A stretch of DNA of 64,000 nucleotides. It comes from Candidatus Thioglobus sp. GTDB lineage: Bacteria; Pseudomonadota; Gammaproteobacteria; PS1; Pseudothioglobaceae. The stretch spans positions 186,001 through 250,000 of the forward strand of contig JAOJBP010000001.1 in NCBI GenBank assembly GCA_028228555.1, given 5' to 3'. Shown here one piece after another: positions 1,612 through 36,134 of this stretch. The position numbers and the translations under genes were made by a program. The notes beneath the pieces were generated by a model, which saw only the letters and a list, made by a program, of their open reading frames with translations, searched no databases and was not told the DNA's origin. Every line of letters starts with the position of its first letter. Position 1 is the first letter of the stretch.

Positions 1612-3006
<1,395 letters not shown>

Positions 3007-3026
3007 TTAAACTCTATTTTTGAATT

Positions 3027-3890
3027 TTATACTGCGGCTGCACCACTTACTATCTCAGAAATTTCCTGAGTAATTGCTGCTTGCCTTGCTTTGTTATATA
3101 CCAACTCTAATTCATCTACCATATCACCCGCATTGTCAGTTGCACTCTTCATAGCAATCATTCTAGAAGATTGCTCAGAAGCAATGTTTTCCACCAATCC
3201 TTGATAAACAATAGCCTCAATGTACCTAACTAATAATGCACTTAACGCTGTTTGTGCATCCGGCTCATAAAGATAATCCCAGTGATGGTTCATACTTTCT
3301 GATTCTGAAGCAACCATTGGAATTAATTGTGCAGTTGTTGGCACTTGTGTCATGGTGTTTTCAAATCTGTTATAGGCAACTGACAATTGCTGAATCTCGT
3401 CATTGTCATATGCATCTAGCATAACTTTAACTGTGCCTAAAAGATCGTCAAAATGAGGTGCATCTCCAAGACCTGTCAATACAGACTTAATATTTAAACC
3501 TAAATTCTTGAAAAATGAAGTGGCTTTTTTACCAATGGTACAAATTTCAACCTCTATACCTTTTGCTTGATAGTCCGCCACTTCTTTTAACAGGCTTCTA
3601 AATAGATTAGTGTTCAAACCACCACACAAGCCTCTATCACTTGAAACGATAATAATACCAACACGTTTAAGCTCACCAACTTCTTTCATATAGGGATGCG
3701 TAAATTCTGGGTGTGCATTTGCCAAATGACTAATTACCTTAGTAATTTTTTCAGAATAAGGTCGCGACTCAAGCATCCTTTGTTGAGCTTTTTTCATTTT
3801 AGACGCGGCCACCATTTCCATAGCCGATGTGATCTTTTGAGTATTTTTAATACTCGCGATCTGCGTTCTAATTTCCTTTCCAGCTGCCAT
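3027..3890 (-). CDS. atpG: F1Fo ATP synthase subunit gamma
   Basis: 287 residues, the same length as the E. coli subunit. Gamma is the rotating central shaft that couples Fo rotation to the beta catalytic sites. The N-terminal helix begins [23 protein letters not shown] and the C-terminal helix contains [11 protein letters not shown] and [13 protein letters not shown], the two antiparallel coiled-coil segments typical of gamma. The [11 protein letters not shown] segment of the Rossmann-like domain is present. It is placed between atpA and atpD in the standard order. Confidence 0.97.
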
Positions 3891-29778: not shown

Positions 29779-29804
29779 AAAAAACCACTCCGAAGAGTGG
29801 CTTT
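29779..29804 (-). terminator. Rho-independent terminator of the repeat-protein gene
   Basis: On the minus strand GCCACTC, a TTCG tetraloop and GAGTGG are followed by a run of eight T (stem at 29785-29790 with 29795-29800). It lies about 50 bases after the stop codon of the gene at 29852. The tetraloop makes it unusually stable. Confidence 0.88.
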
Positions 29805-29851
29805 TAACAAAAAGCGCAAGAGCTAGCTCAGGCGCTTAACGTGACTACTAA

Positions 29852-30379
29852 TTACATTGCAGGAGCAGTAGGAGTAGTTTCACGTGAGTCTACAACAGAG
29901 CTAGACTTAGCGTCTGCGAAACCTTTAGCGTATGCATCAGCTTGAGCCTTAGCAAAAGCGTCAGCTTGACCTTTAGCGTATGCATCAGCAACACCTTTAG
30001 CGTTAGCGTCAGCAACACCAGCAAACTTACCATCTGTAGTAGCGTTAGAAACGTTCTTAGTTGTGTTCTTGTTGTTGTAATGGAAGCCCCAATCAGAATC
30101 GTTGTTCATGTCGTTGTTGTTAGCGAAAGGACCAAAGTTTTGAGCGCCATTGAAAGGACCCATGTTTGAACCACCGTTGAAAGGACCCATGTTTTGTCCA
30201 CCAGTAAATGGACCCATGTTAGAACCTGAGTTCATAGGACCGAAGTTAGAACCACCGTCAAAAGGACCCCAGTTAGACATGCCGTTACCGTTAGTCCAAC
30301 CGTTGTTGTTGTTGTTACCAAAAAAAGCTGAAGCTGAAGTAGCTGCTACTAAAGTAGTAATTGCGATAATTTTTTTCAT
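29852..30379 (-). CDS. Secreted repeat protein, candidate sulfur-globule-type protein
   Basis: 175 residues with a Sec signal peptide (about 1-18, ending SASA, then FFGNNNNNGW). No Cys. The mature protein has three parts: an Asn/Gly-rich start; six 9-residue repeats of the form GP[FM]-x5-N-[MF] (38-91, e.g. GPFNGGSNM); and five 8-residue repeats KGxADA[YF]A (120-159). The tail ends PTAPAM. Small, secreted, Gly/Asn/aromatic repeat proteins are the hallmark of the envelope of periplasmic sulfur globules, and proteins of this look occur in sulfur-oxidising gammaproteobacteria; I infer that role. A structural surface or matrix protein is the alternative. Its consensus promoter, 5' hairpin, AGGAG site and strong terminator suggest very high expression. 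Confidence 0.6.
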   Translation of the reverse strand: MKKIIAITTLVAATSASAFFGNNNNNGWTNGNGMSNWGPFDGGSNFGPMNSGSNMGPFTGGQNMGPFNGGSNMGPFNGAQNFGPFANNNDMNNDSDWGFHYNNKNTTKNVSNATTDGKFAGVADANAKGVADAYAKGQADAFAKAQADAYAKGFADAKSSSVVDSRETTPTAPAM

Positions 30380-30412
30380 GTTAATCTCCTAGATTATGTT
30401 TTAAATTTTTGA

Positions 30413-30432
30413 CTCACTCATTATTGAGTAAG
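30413..30432 (-). promoter_or_regulatory. Stable hairpin in the 5' leader of the repeat-protein gene
   Basis: CTTACTCA (30432-30425) and TGAGTGAG (30420-30413) on the minus strand form an 8-bp stem with a 4-base loop (one wobble pair). It lies about 35 bases upstream of the start codon and well clear of the AGGAG ribosome site. Such 5' stems commonly protect abundant mRNAs from decay. Confidence 0.5.
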
Positions 30433-30468
30433 TTTTAAGTACTGAGCTAGTTACCCTGTATGGGGAAT

Positions 30469-30496
30469 ATTATATAACATTTATATTAGAAGTCAA
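30469..30496 (-). promoter_or_regulatory. Near-consensus sigma70 promoter of the repeat-protein gene
   Basis: Minus strand TTGACT (30496-30491), 16-base spacer, TATAAT (30474-30469). With a start near 30462 the leader is about 80 bases. The hexamers differ from consensus at a single position. The rest of the 412-base gap to 31316's gene (about 30500-30736) is AT-rich and shows no gene. Confidence 0.7.
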
Positions 30497-30736
30497 TGAT
30501 ATTCTTTTATTTTTTTTCAAATATTCTATAAATCGTTGATATAACAGCGTTTATTCCCTTAAAAAAATATTGAAAAAAATAAAAATGAGCTAAAAATAGG
30601 CGTCAAGAGTACTAAAAAAGCATCCAAAATGGCTGTTTCGTCTTAATGATTGGGTCTTTTTAAGTCCTTATCTGTGCAAATTATCAAAATTTGGCAAATA
30701 TTGAGAATGAACCTGTTTATGGTTATCACTTTCAAC

Positions 30737-30791: not shown

Positions 30792-31316
30792 TTACTTATT
30801 AATATTAATTCTAGGCGTAGATGCGGCAGCGGGTGATAAATTCTGACCCTGCATCTGAGCTCTAACTGCCTGTGCAGCATTCTGAGACTGTGATTGCATC
30901 TGTTTATATCCGTCATTGAAGTTTACTGGCATTTCGTTAACAAAAAATGTTTTGCTGCCTGAGCCTTGAATTTGATCTAGCGTTTTACTAAAATCAGTCT
31001 CTTTTAGCCAGTTACTCGGCTGGATTTGATTAGGCGTAGCAATCATTGCGTTATTTTGTTGGAACGCATTATTTTGACGATAGTTTTTAAGTGTGCTTGG
31101 ACGTGCACCAAAGCGACTCATATTTCGCGCGTCATTTTGTGGTGAATATTGTTCGCCCGCAGACATTGGATTCCAATTAGAATTATTACTCCAAGGTGCT
31201 TGACTCGTGTGGCCCGTTCCATTTCCAAACGGTGAAAAACCAGTGGTATCAAAAAATGCAGCAGCATTCATTGATATGGTCGCTAAACCAATCAGAAAAT
31301 AATTAATTTTTGTCAT
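30792..31316 (-). CDS. Secreted Asn/Gln-rich protein of unknown function
   Basis: 174 residues, not recognised. It starts with a signal peptide (about 1-20, MTKINYFLIGLATISMNAAA) followed by FFDTTGF, an ending very like the SASAFFG of the neighbouring repeat protein. The mature chain is rich in Asn, Gln, Ser and Pro, has no Cys and little predicted hydrophobic core. It has several QNNA/QQNNA-like stretches and a Gln/Ala-rich helix near the C-terminus (YKQMQSQSQNAAQAVRAQMQ). It has its own consensus promoter and terminator. It lies between the repeat protein and the RND-type operon, all on the minus strand. It may be a second matrix or surface protein or a substrate of that operon; this is inference from position and composition. 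Confidence 0.65.
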   Translation of the reverse strand: MTKINYFLIGLATISMNAAAFFDTTGFSPFGNGTGHTSQAPWSNNSNWNPMSAGEQYSPQNDARNMSRFGARPSTLKNYRQNNAFQQNNAMIATPNQIQPSNWLKETDFSKTLDQIQGSGSKTFFVNEMPVNFNDGYKQMQSQSQNAAQAVRAQMQGQNLSPAAASTPRININK

Positions 31317-31379: not shown

Positions 31380-32672
31380 CTAAAAACCATAGCTTAGTTT
31401 TGTAAAGATTCGATCGTTATCCTTAAAACTGTCAATAGTAAGATTATCGCCTGGTAGATAATCAATAACGCCAGCGCTTACTGACATTTGATCATCAACC
31501 GCATAATCAAGCTCAAATCTAGCTGTTCCTCCATCTTGTCCCGTATTACCAAACACACTGAAAACCGCATTAAAATCTAGCGTTTGATTTAAATAAGATT
31601 GGTTAAAGCGTAAGGCTTGCTGGTATTCTTTCTCAGGCTTATAGCCATTTAGCACATGATTAATTAGATCTTCATAATCATGGATTTTTCTCAAGGCGAT
31701 TTCATAACTGATTGAACCATCTCGAATGCCGCTATATTCAACGCCTAACAATAAATCAGTTCTGGCTTTATTATCATTAACATTGTTATAGTTAATATTA
31801 TCAAAATGTGCAATTTCAGTCTTTAATAAGAAACTGTCAACCACTTGATTATAAGCAAAACCTAGCATTTTAGATTTATTGTCATATTTCAATGTCGTAT
31901 TATTCTCTACTAAATAGGGCTTGTCTACATAAGTATCGGCGAAATAAAAACCCAGATCATAACCTTCAAATGCGCCATTTAAACTCATGGCAAATGTTGT
32001 ATTGTCCAAAGAGTCGGCAGGCTGAATAATTAAAAAATCATTTGCACCTATAGGCAGACTGCTAAAATCTGAATCTTTCCTGGGATTCTTGCTGAAACGA
32101 TTTTCATGAAGTGCAATGACTGATAAATTTAAATCGTTCATATAGTAATCTAGCTTGCTCATCGTTCTGCCTAAGCGTAAATTCTTAATATCGACCAATC
32201 CAGGTGTGCGATTGTCTAATGGATTAAGAATATCCGTTATTCTGATAGAATCTGACTTGCCCCAAACTACGACCTGCCTACCAGCCTTAAAGTCTAAATT
32301 TTGAAAAATTTCGAGCTCAATATTAAGCTCATTTAAATCAATTTGAGTTTCATAGCCTTCTGGAACGGATCGATTTTCAAGCTCATACACAAAATCACGG
32401 TAGCCTTTAAGGTTGCCTGATAATTTCGCGCCATTGTCAAATTTGTACTCACCCAAAATATCAACTAAGGTTTTTAAAGATGACAAGTCTTTTTCATTGC
32501 TAACATTGTAATGCGCCTCTACTTCGATCGAGCCATATAAATCACCTTTTGAATCTGGCGCCTGATCGACGACAACTTCAATCACCTCATCATCAAAGCC
32601 TTCATCAAAGCCGTCTTCTGCACTAATAGATAATGATAAAACTAATACAACAGAACTAAGCCAATATTTCAT
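31380..32672 (-). CDS. DUF1302-like outer-membrane beta-barrel protein
   Basis: 430 residues with a signal peptide (about 1-18) and an acidic N-terminal stretch (EDGFDEGFDDEVIEVVVD). Then come many alternating amphipathic strands and a C-terminal KLSYGF ending in Phe, the outer-membrane assembly signal. The segment FKAGRQVVVWGKSDSIRITDILNPLDNR matches the most conserved part of DUF1302-family proteins (GRQVV.WG, then NP), which are encoded next to RND/MMPL transporters in several proteobacteria. No function is established for the family; a pore or acceptor for an exported hydrophobic compound or lipid is the usual suggestion. It begins three bases after the LolA-like gene stop, so they are co-translated. 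Confidence 0.75.
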   Translation of the reverse strand: MKYWLSSVVLVLSLSISAEDGFDEGFDDEVIEVVVDQAPDSKGDLYGSIEVEAHYNVSNEKDLSSLKTLVDILGEYKFDNGAKLSGNLKGYRDFVYELENRSVPEGYETQIDLNELNIELEIFQNLDFKAGRQVVVWGKSDSIRITDILNPLDNRTPGLVDIKNLRLGRTMSKLDYYMNDLNLSVIALHENRFSKNPRKDSDFSSLPIGANDFLIIQPADSLDNTTFAMSLNGAFEGYDLGFYFADTYVDKPYLVENNTTLKYDNKSKMLGFAYNQVVDSFLLKTEIAHFDNINYNNVNDNKARTDLLLGVEYSGIRDGSISYEIALRKIHDYEDLINHVLNGYKPEKEYQQALRFNQSYLNQTLDFNAVFSVFGNTGQDGGTARFELDYAVDDQMSVSAGVIDYLPGDNLTIDSFKDNDRIFTKLSYGF

Positions 32673-32675
32673 CTC

Positions 32676-33482
32676 TTAAAGGCCTTTCTCAATTGTTCGA
32701 ATTGTAAACATATTGCTATCGATCGGCTGATTAATTCTGACATCAGAATTAGTTAAGATGGTCTTATGCAGGGTTTGTTTTCCTTGCTTGGTAGTCATGG
32801 TAGTTTTCATAGCAACCCAAATGCCGTCAATTTTCTGTATCTCTTTGACATCCATATATTTAATACGACTGGCTTTTTTCAAATAAAACTTCGCACGAGT
32901 CAGCACGTAATTATCTTTACGCACATATAGAATACTCTTTGTATAGCCTGTTTCGTCGATCACGCCTTGGTTTGCCGGCAATGCTTCAATCTTCCACACT
33001 TGCTCGTCACCCTTAGCACGCTTAATGGTGCTTTCTCCTAGCAACTTATAGCTGTAATCATCCAACTCTTTATCGGTCATATCTGAATAGGAGAAATCAC
33101 TGCCCATAAAAGCAGCATCTTTGTCACTAGCTGGTATTCGCTTGGTTTTTTTCAATGCTGGTAAATACATCCACTGATCATCGTCCTTATCGTCACCACT
33201 ATAATCATAAGTCAAAAAGGCGGTATTTTTAACATCGCTTGGCGATAAGAAAAAGATAGTTTTATGCTCAGTATTAGCGTCAATATCTTTTGAAAATGTG
33301 CGCATTTGTCGAGTGCGCTGCTTGTTATTTTTATCAATCAACGTCATTTGCATGGTGGACACCATACTGTCGCCGTCATCTCTCGCATCTGCTTTATCCA
33401 TAATGCTTCGAGCCTGGTCTGCGCCGAATGCACTGGTTGCACCTAATAGGGCGCTGAGTGTTACTAATAATAGTTTTTTCAT
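32676..33482 (-). CDS. LolA-like outer membrane lipoprotein-sorting family protein
   Basis: 268 residues with a signal peptide (about 1-20, ending SAFGA). It belongs to the periplasmic group annotated as outer membrane lipoprotein-sorting protein (COG2834), with a LolA/LolB-like curved beta-sheet expected. Visible family features are ARSIMDKADARDDGDSMVSTMQMTLID near the start, DDQWMYLPALKKTKRIPASDKDAAFMGSDFSYSDM in the centre and KFYLKKASRIKYMDV later. It is not canonical LolA. Its start overlaps the stop of the RND transporter (TAATG) and the barrel gene follows after three bases. It may shuttle a hydrophobic cargo across the periplasm. Confidence 0.8.
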   Translation of the reverse strand: MKKLLLVTLSALLGATSAFGADQARSIMDKADARDDGDSMVSTMQMTLIDKNNKQRTRQMRTFSKDIDANTEHKTIFFLSPSDVKNTAFLTYDYSGDDKDDDQWMYLPALKKTKRIPASDKDAAFMGSDFSYSDMTDKELDDYSYKLLGESTIKRAKGDEQVWKIEALPANQGVIDETGYTKSILYVRKDNYVLTRAKFYLKKASRIKYMDVKEIQKIDGIWVAMKTTMTTKQGKQTLHKTILTNSDVRINQPIDSNMFTIRTIEKGL

Positions 33483-35905
33483 TATAAATCTCCTTTGTTA
33501 TGAACAAGTAACTTCATGATGGCAGGCACTAAGAAAAAATCAGCCAATAGAGCAATAAAGATAGCGCTGGCTGTCAATATACCAAAGTTAAACATCGAGC
33601 TCATCGAGGCAAACAACAAGACCAAAAATCCAACTGAAAGCACGATCGATGTTGCTGTTATAGCTCTACCGGTGCCCATTAAAGTAAGTCTTACTGCTTT
33701 ATCAACATCATTAAATTCAAGCTCATAGCGCCTAAAGTTATGCATGAAATGCACCGTGTCATCCACCGCTAATCCGAGCGCAATAGCACCAATTAACATG
33801 GTGAACATATCAAGTGGCATATCAAAAATTACCATAATGGTTGATAAGAACAAAATTGGCAAGATATTTGGAATCATACTGATTAAACCAATCTTGACAT
33901 TGCCAATGAGTAGCACCATCATGACTGTCACCAAGCCAAAGGCTATCAAGTAGCTTATTGCACTAGAGTGAATGGATTTTTCCATAATCACTGATAATAA
34001 TGTCGTGATGCCTGTTAATTGAACAGTCGCTACACCTTTAAACTCTTGATCAAGTCGCTCTTGAACTTGCAATATAAACTCGTTGTATTCAAGTGCATCA
34101 ATATAGGGTGCTTTAACCGTGATACGCGCTTTTGAAAAACTGGAATCTACAAAATCTTCCAAATCATCGCTGCCGCTATTTTCAAATAAAAATAGCTCTT
34201 GAGCAATCAGATCTTTATTTTGAGGGATACTATAAAACTCGGCCTTATTTTCATTCAGTGCCCTATTAGTCTCTTTCAACACATCGGCCAAACTTAGGGT
34301 TTTTCCCACAAAGTAGGTCTCAGTTTGAATACTATTCAAATAATCCGTGGCGTTTTGGATTTTGTTAAGCATTACCGGTTCATACAAACCATTTTCTTTG
34401 CCGGTATCAATCACAATTTCCAAAGTGATCGAGCCCTTAAGTTTTTCATCAACTACCTCTGTAGCGACTCTTGAGGGGTGATCTTCTGGAAACCACTCTA
34501 ATGGATAATGCGAGAATCTGAGCTGTGATGCAAAGAAAATAGCGACCACAACCATCATTGTACTAATCGCGATAATCGCTTTTGGATAGCCTGTTGAGAT
34601 TCGACTAATGCTCAATAACATCGTGTCCATCTTAGTGTGCTCTTGTGAATCTTCTTTGGCTGTATGTGGTTTAATTTTCATACTGGCAATCAGTGCTGGT
34701 AATAAAACCAAGTTAAACAACAAACCAATCAAAACACCACTACTGGCGAACACGCCTAAATCAGCCACGGGGGACAGCTCTGAAAATGAGAACGACCATA
34801 GGCCCGCTGCTGTGGTGAGTGATGTCATCACAATGGCAAGTCCAGAGTGTCCCATGGCATAACGTAGAGATGCCTTTCTGTCTTGCGTTTTAGAAAGGTC
34901 CTTATAAAAAATTGCCAATAAGTGAATGGCGCCGCCGGTAATAACGGCCAGTAAAAATGACGGCATAATTTGAGTCACAATGGTAAACGGCGTACCCGTT
35001 ATAGCCATAAGAGACAAGGTAACTGCAATGGTGAAAAAAACGGCAACTAGAGGAAGTAGCACGCCTGAAAGGCGCTTAAATAATATGGCCAAAACAATTA
35101 CAATCATTACAATCATTTTTGTAATAAAGCTTTTAGTATCCTCCATCATGCTTTGTTTTAACGTGCCAGCAATTACTGCTGAGCCGGTCAGATAGATTTT
35201 AAAATCCTCTGCTTCAAAGTCTTTAATAATTTGCTGAGCTTTGTTAACAAGAATAGTGTTTTCAGCATCCGAAAAATAAAGCTTCTCAGTTTGCACTATA
35301 TTAACGGGCTTATCTGCGAACTCATCTTCTTCCTGTTCAACGATAAGTTTGCCATCAGCATCAAGCAAAGAGTATGTTTGTGTATCAATCACAATGGTGG
35401 TGAATGTTTGATCTTCACTAAATAACAAATTTTCTAGCAAAGGATTGTTAAGTGCTCGTTGTTTTTGCGGCTCAATCTGTTCTTGTGTATCTGGCAAGGC
35501 TTCAAACAAATCCTCAACAATCAGACTTTCTTGGTCGCCATAAGTATTTCTGGCATTAATAAGAGAGTTAACGTCTGTGATATAAGGCGTTAACTCATTT
35601 TCAAGTCGAACATGAAGCTTTTCCAGCTTCTTGAGAAAATTCAGATCAAAAACATTGCTTGTTTTAATAGCAACCAACAGCTTTTCATCACGACCAAACT
35701 GGTCTCTAAACTCATCATAAGCCACACGCATAGAATCTGTTTTATGCAGAAATCCCTCTGTTGAGGTGTCCATGGTTAAATTCGGCAATTGAGAGCCAAA
35801 TGCTGCTACTAATAATAAAATGGCAAAAATGGTTTTTTTACTATTTGTAAAGATCAAGTCTGAAAAACTTTCAAATTTTCTTTCGGTTCGATGACGCCAA
35901 TTCAT
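33482..35905 (-). CDS. RND/MMPL-family transporter
   Basis: 807 residues from the ATG at 35905 (an in-frame TTG at 35920 is less likely). A two-fold RND architecture: an N-terminal membrane helix, a large periplasmic loop (about 55-255), six helices, a second loop (about 430-640), then six helices. The sterol-sensing-like transmembrane block occurs twice, the second copy with IGAIALGLAVDDTVHFMHNFRR (proton-relay Asp pair). This is the COG1033-type exporter rather than a drug-efflux AcrB. No membrane-fusion protein or TolC is encoded nearby; the LolA-like protein and the barrel appear to take those places. First gene of the three-gene operon. Confidence 0.88.
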   Translation of the reverse strand: MNWRHRTERKFESFSDLIFTNSKKTIFAILLLVAAFGSQLPNLTMDTSTEGFLHKTDSMRVAYDEFRDQFGRDEKLLVAIKTSNVFDLNFLKKLEKLHVRLENELTPYITDVNSLINARNTYGDQESLIVEDLFEALPDTQEQIEPQKQRALNNPLLENLLFSEDQTFTTIVIDTQTYSLLDADGKLIVEQEEDEFADKPVNIVQTEKLYFSDAENTILVNKAQQIIKDFEAEDFKIYLTGSAVIAGTLKQSMMEDTKSFITKMIVMIVIVLAILFKRLSGVLLPLVAVFFTIAVTLSLMAITGTPFTIVTQIMPSFLLAVITGGAIHLLAIFYKDLSKTQDRKASLRYAMGHSGLAIVMTSLTTAAGLWSFSFSELSPVADLGVFASSGVLIGLLFNLVLLPALIASMKIKPHTAKEDSQEHTKMDTMLLSISRISTGYPKAIIAISTMMVVVAIFFASQLRFSHYPLEWFPEDHPSRVATEVVDEKLKGSITLEIVIDTGKENGLYEPVMLNKIQNATDYLNSIQTETYFVGKTLSLADVLKETNRALNENKAEFYSIPQNKDLIAQELFLFENSGSDDLEDFVDSSFSKARITVKAPYIDALEYNEFILQVQERLDQEFKGVATVQLTGITTLLSVIMEKSIHSSAISYLIAFGLVTVMMVLLIGNVKIGLISMIPNILPILFLSTIMVIFDMPLDMFTMLIGAIALGLAVDDTVHFMHNFRRYELEFNDVDKAVRLTLMGTGRAITATSIVLSVGFLVLLFASMSSMFNFGILTASAIFIALLADFFLVPAIMKLLVHNKGDL

Positions 35906-36134
35906 AATAGGTAATTCCAATTAATAAGTTTTTAAAATTTTATTGTTATATAGAAAGCATGGTGTGCATTTTATTATATAAATTAAAATGTTGATGCCCC
36001 TCTATTTTTAAATCAAGTTCATTATAAGCTGTAATATAAACTAGCATATTATATAAAAAAACATTTGCTATCAACTTATTGCCAAATGTAACAATTCTAT
36101 TGTGATCATATAGCTTACGTATAATTAATTTTAT

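Follow-up and report, generated by a model that had tools for sequence, protein, structure and literature searches.

The question raised by this locus is what a short, secreted protein made of two types of repeat does in a relative of the SUP05 bacteria. The window, meaning the whole stretch of 64,000 nucleotides of Candidatus Thioglobus sp. DNA that was analysed, contains the gene, its control region and a weakly similar neighbour (Table 1). An earlier note on this DNA had described a signal peptide, two repeat types, six of nine residues and five of eight, and an absence of cysteine. All of these are seen in the 175-residue reading frame. GP(F/M) occurs at residues 38, 47, 56, 65, 74 and 83, an exact period of nine, and one of the six is GPM. 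Each nine residues hold one proline (at 39, 48, 57, 66, 75 and 84) and one or two bulky residues. ADA occurs at residues 123, 131, 139, 147 and 155, which gives five units with an exact period of eight. In the self-match of the protein, period 9 has z = 7.2 and period 8 has z = 8.3, and in 5000 shuffles neither value was matched at any of the periods 2 to 19. The DNA-level repeats of 27 and 12/24 nt are consistent with these protein periods.

The alignment of 54 homologues supports the same divisions. S17 and A18, at the end of the signal peptide, are nearly invariant, and residues N93, D96, G98 and N105 of the linker are invariant. By inspection and by this conserved S-A end, the signal peptide is predicted to direct the protein through Sec to the periplasm, and a cytoplasmic location is not indicated. 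The mature protein is hydrophilic (GRAVY -0.80), and the protein has one histidine. Searches of Pfam and NCBIfam returned no family matching either the protein or its neighbour P0002. A match to FliH (E 0.016) reflects small-residue repeats, and a profile search of the PDB returned only weak, low-complexity matches to eL29.

Table 1. Features of the two-repeat gene, its control region and the adjoining gene, in window positions.
Feature	Position	Strand	Basis or remark
Intrinsic terminator, TTCG loop	29780..29805	(-)	Sequence
CDS, secreted two-repeat protein, 175 aa	29852..30379	(-)	ORF and translation
8-residue repeat region, residues 121-161, unit G-x-A-D-A-Y-A-K	29897..30019	(-)	Gly/Ala/Ser alternating strictly with other residues
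Conserved linker NDSDWGFHYNNKN, residues 93-105	30065..30103	(-)	Alignment of homologues
Six 9-residue units, G-G-S-N-W/M/F-G-P-F-N type, residues 34-87	30119..30280	(-)	Self-match and pattern search
Predicted Sec-type signal peptide MKKIIAITTLVAATSASA, residues 1-18	30326..30379	(-)	Inspection and conservation
Ribosome-binding site AGGAG	30386..30390	(-)	Sequence
5'-UTR stem-loop 2, 9 bp, loop ATAA	30412..30433	(-)	Per-sequence stem test
5'-UTR stem-loop 1, one mismatch, weak in the window	30440..30460	(-)	Per-sequence stem test
Promoter TTGACT-16-TATAAT, sigma-70-type	30469..30496	(-)	11/12 match
Imperfect palindrome TAAAAGAA-TATCATTGAC-TTCTAATA over the -35 box, candidate operator	30484..30509	(-)	Conservation
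P0002, 174-aa secreted protein, weakly similar in N-terminal part	30792..31316	(-)	Beside sgp gene in several genomes

The control region is as the earlier note had described it, with a near-perfect promoter, a 5' hairpin, an AGGAG site and a TTCG-loop terminator. The promoter ranks best among the 7 sites found, where 3.7 are expected. The gene thus has its own promoter and its own terminator, the layout of the sulfur globule protein (Sgp) class. Stem-loop 1 precedes stem-loop 2, and the latter has a perfect stem (ACTTACTCA-ataa-TGAGTGAGT). Two successive stem-loops are conserved in the 5' UTRs of the homologues, with differing sequences. Their mean stem scores are 5.9 and 7.7, against 3.8 +/- 0.4 and 4.6 +/- 0.3 for dinucleotide shuffles, and none of 100 shuffled sets matched either observed score. 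RNAalifold returned no consensus structure for the MAFFT alignment of the leaders because stem and loop lengths vary. An Rfam search of the leader returned nothing real. It is plausible that the leader stabilises the mRNA.

The palindrome over the -35 box has the consensus TATTAGAA-N10-TTCTAATA, and the window copy carries two mismatches in the left arm. A search of six genomes for the full 26-nt box with up to three mismatches found 10 sites, against none for the reversed control. Each genome has one or two sites, and these adjoin family genes. Half-sites alone are unspecific in this AT-rich genome (195 matches vs 234 in the control). At one homologous locus (L032) the palindrome is perfect with both arms changed. 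A column-shuffle test gave no significant support for compensatory change between the arms, with 357 of 2000 shuffles attaining the observed value. The conservation of the palindrome is clear, and it is a candidate operator.

With rpsB, tsf and rplY as reference, the gene has a codon adaptation of 0.858, which places it first among the 51 genes of the window (mean 0.624, sd 0.073) and above the reference genes' own values. This is a ranking rather than a measurement, as the reference set is limited to those three genes. Together, the codon usage and the promoter suggest that the gene is highly expressed.

Relatives of the protein were found at 59 loci in a search of genome contigs and in 50 of the 83 genomes of the taxonomic family. 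Counted with the patterns used, most homologues have five or six of the 9-mers and three or four of the 8-mers, and the spacing of the units stays at 9 and 8, or at multiples of these, with rare exceptions. The occurrence of two repeat types in one short protein had been thought unusual. Since the repeat spacing is kept across the homologues, the two-part plan is instead the norm for the family. Relatives with informative titles come from SUP05, Thioglobus, Ruthia, Ruthturnera, Vesicomyosocius, Thiodubiliella and Bathymodiolus symbionts, with one exception that is labelled Piscirickettsiaceae. Homologues are therefore not confined to non-sulfur bacteria, a finding that would have counted against a role in sulfur storage; nearly all of those with informative titles belong to SUP05-type sulfur oxidisers or to relatives that are clam or mussel symbionts. 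The reduced genomes of clam symbionts, of ~1.0-1.2 Mb, retain two to four family matches. In one clam-symbiont-type genome (G040), a 742-bp block containing gene and promoter is present near 9.1 kb and near 861.3 kb of contig C1 (L096/L133). The two copies are 100% identical and their flanks differ, which suggests that duplication or gene conversion took place recently.

In a sample of 369 Gammaproteobacteria genomes, the family profile (A1) matched only two genomes beyond the taxonomic family, both weakly and with the likeness in the N-terminus and the linker. As dsrA occurs in 118 of the 369 genomes, the dsrA-positive status of these two is weak evidence. The loci L131 and L132, in Dsr-positive genomes of another family (G300 and G184), encode a secreted protein with a similar N-terminus, the linker DVEWDLNLDTK and a Gly/Pro/Tyr tail. 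These are possibly distant globule proteins.

The distribution of the family follows that of dsrA. Both are present in 47 of the 83 genomes and neither in 30; three have the family only and three have dsrA only (Fisher p 7e-16, a value that is uncorrected for shared descent and stems from few independent evolutionary events). One of the family-only genomes, G015, is discordant because its copy lies on a misbinned contig from another genus: 4411 of the 4455 bp of contig C31 (L139) are 100% identical to a genome of that genus (L140/L080). The other two family-only assemblies are 66% and 86% complete. In the three dsrA-only genomes (G049, G051 and G061), the family may have been lost in assembly. 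Many family matches in MAGs sit at contig ends, so absence from a fragmented MAG is weak evidence. The presence of dsrA without soxC is a gene content usually tied to sulfur storage, and soxC had no match above the cut-off in any of the 83 genomes. The genomes with neither dsrA nor the family are nearly all from one genus, with G001 from another. This clade fits the profile of ARCTIC96BD-19, which has been reported to lack sulfur oxidation (PMC8359478). The window genome itself contains dsrA above the cut-off (G000:C3:48985-50247) and a paralogue of the gene (G000:C2:12-410), so that paralogy occurs here in an rDsr oxidiser.

The closest published system is the cultured relative 'Ca. Thioglobus autotrophicus' EF1. 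The EF1 report describes periplasmic sulfur globules, three Sgp proteins detected in the proteome and, without locus names in the main text, four putative sgp genes (PMC6509183). The putative EF1 genome in our set (G062) belongs to the same genus group as the window genome and has five family genes, a four-gene tandem (G062:C1:133.6-136.5 kb) and a fifth copy; one of the copies lies at G062:C1:737012-737515. The window protein is 93% identical to the products of two of these genes, over residues 1-171 and 1-170, and the fifth copy shares its neighbours and its promoter palindrome with the window gene. The published EF1 sgp genes probably belong to the same family, which would make the window gene a further member of an already reported protein kind. 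The two genomes differ in that the four-gene tandem is whole in G062 and broken at contig ends in the window assembly. There, the second family gene lies right at the beginning of contig C2, and the icd-like gene that flanks the EF1-type tandem ends at the edge (start) of contig C7. The tandem was therefore most likely lost in the gap between these contigs, and the genome very probably has more copies than the assembly shows.

Known Sgps have in common a signal peptide, regularly spaced prolines, paralogy and a monocistronic layout (PMC10386293; PMC7356093). The window protein resembles Allochromatium vinosum SgpA, SgpB and SgpC in being small, predicted to be Sec-exported, repetitive and paralogous, with regularly spaced prolines, and in coming from an rDsr organism (PMC10386293). 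The A. vinosum proteins are called extremely hydrophobic, unlike the hydrophilic window protein, and the latter has a second, charged repeat type. SgpD of A. vinosum is also similar in plan. It has a signal peptide, a proline-spaced part and repeats predicted to be helical, and its gene is a single transcription unit next to an exporter gene (PMC10386293); compared by description, it differs in that the second part of the window protein alternates strictly every two residues. Beggiatoa leptomitoformis ALG67575.1, also compared by description, is likewise secreted, with regularly spaced prolines and no conserved domain (PMC7356093).

The most probable reading, at about 80%, is that the product is a sulfur globule protein of the SUP05 type, presumably located at the globule. 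The family's association with dsrA, the signal peptide and the five copies in the putative EF1 genome support it. The hydrophilic composition counts against this reading, as do the near absence of relatives from the sampled Gammaproteobacteria of other families, the three genomes with dsrA only and a co-occurrence with dsrA that stems from few independent evolutionary events. The protein would work like the A. vinosum Sgps. It is not filed in the SgpA/B/C sequence family, because homology to that family is not demonstrable here, with no clear sequence relative in the class sample, and the hydrophobic composition is absent; the figure of about 80% is for the SUP05-type reading only. The protein would be a small, abundant structural protein, exported by Sec to the periplasm and assembled there into the envelope of elemental-sulfur globules, whose sulfur the rDsr pathway would later consume. 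The Gly/Asn/aromatic GPF part may form a flexible, aromatic-rich, adhesive layer facing the sulfur. The C-terminal part may self-associate by alternating packing and D-K pairing to form a coat. High output would come from the presence of several paralogues, the strong promoter dedicated to the gene and the structured leader.

The earlier note had left open whether the protein belongs to sulfur globules or to an extracellular matrix, and the evidence favours the first of these. A matrix protein, adhesin or surface-layer-associated protein, exported past the outer membrane, would suit a secreted repeat protein with silk-like features whose gene adjoins those for an MMPL/RND transporter, a LolA-like protein and a DUF1302 outer-membrane-type protein. 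However, the window protein has no lipobox, cysteine or anchor, and intracellular clam symbionts with 1-Mb genomes keep multiple copies of the gene. The family is also absent from the dsrA-lacking clade, yet strain PS1 of that clade forms an S-layer, and the S-layer protein of EF1 is a different protein of 34 kDa (PMC6509183). A surface role is thus unlikely. The same phylogenetic profile would be expected of a periplasmic structural or buffer protein of the sulfur-oxidising lifestyle that acts outside the globule envelope, for example as a carrier or chaperone of polysulfide or metal. Against this role, the window protein offers no cysteine and a single histidine for binding sulfur or metal, and the strict repeat periods and low complexity suit a structural polymer; the role is highly improbable.

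Within the globule protein reading, the structure of the C-terminal repeat is a separate matter. In residues 121-161, the 21 odd positions are on average 98% Gly/Ala/Ser across the 54 homologues (minimum 89%), whereas such residues average 6% at the 20 intervening even positions (maximum 35%). At these even positions the window protein has V D N K V D Y K Q D F K Q D Y K F D K S, with D and K in turn, four residues apart. In the spectrum of this part, power is 8.7 at period 2 vs 0.008 at period 3.6. An extended strand would place the small residues on one face and D/Y/K/Q on the other, and the pattern favours a beta-type structure. The earlier note had proposed a rigid glycine part and a helical Ala/Lys part; the two parts hold, and the second shows beta-type alternation with no clear helix signature. 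A long alpha-helix, as predicted for SgpD, would agree with the D and K residues at i,i+4 and with the helix that AlphaFold2 places at residues 126-163 from the 54 homologues. Confidence in that model is very low (pLDDT about 45-52 in the helix, mean pLDDT 44.8, pTM 0.17), and period-2 alternation dominates the sequence. In addition, EAK16, which has the same kind of alternation and i,i+4 ion pairs, had also been given a helical model and proved to be a stable beta-sheet (PMC2387071). The helix is a serious contender on structure, at somewhat less than even odds.

The likeness to EAK16 and RADA16, in which alanine alternates with charged residues of both signs as it does in the window protein, is an analogy and not homology. 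Those peptides are synthetic 16-mers; the window protein is natural, with a glycine every eight residues and aromatics on the polar face. We tentatively propose, with the balance tilted against the proposal as a whole, that a natural ionic-complementary beta-sheet polymer forms the coat of SUP05 globules. This would be a protein specific to the lineage and without sequence kinship to the Sgps of Chromatiaceae, with a conserved (G-x-A-D-A-Y-A-K)n tail that self-assembles like RADA16/EAK16 and a GPF part that meets the sulfur; its synthesis would be set by the operator palindrome and the structured leader.

The surroundings of the gene are also conserved. P0002 is repetitive (FFxxxxFSPFGNGTG...), and its relatives lie beside sgp genes at seven loci (L007, L036, L041, L054, L081, L082 and L128). 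It is a candidate for a further globule component. Beside the sgp gene, window positions 31380-35920 (-) hold a block of genes for a DUF1302 protein, a LolA-like protein (also DUF1329) and an MMPL/RND transporter, which is conserved in several genomes. The order transporter, LolA-like protein, DUF1302 protein, P0002 relative and sgp occurs at at least five other loci (L036, L041, L054, L081 and L082). At L081, as in the window, tsf and rpsB come next and are oppositely oriented. Elsewhere in the window genome, on contig C11, a secreted protein (L004, 991-1782 (-)) has an Sgp-like Gly/Asn/Phe N-terminal part fused to DUF302. Its gene is divergent from one for a rhodanese and metallo-beta-lactamase (1882-3192 (+)), which suggests that the repeat part is put to another use linked to sulfur. 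On contig C2 at 128.4-131.6 kb (L141, 3453-6550), a second, more divergent cluster next to a HIT-family-like gene encodes a run of at least four further secreted proteins that are small and rich in Asn/Gly/Trp.

SUP05 bacteria rank among the main oxidisers of sulfur in oxygen-minimum zones and at vents, and clams and mussels are nourished by related bacteria. For this group, the kind of protein described here is already known; the details that are new and testable are its alternating tail, promoter box and two-stem leader. Family and promoter palindrome together offer a clean genetic marker for the sulfur-storing members of the clade. More data are called for on how, at the structural level, a coat of the Sgps studied so far controls periplasmic sulfur (PMC10386293). 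The strictly alternating tail makes the structure of such a coat approachable as a concrete peptide question.
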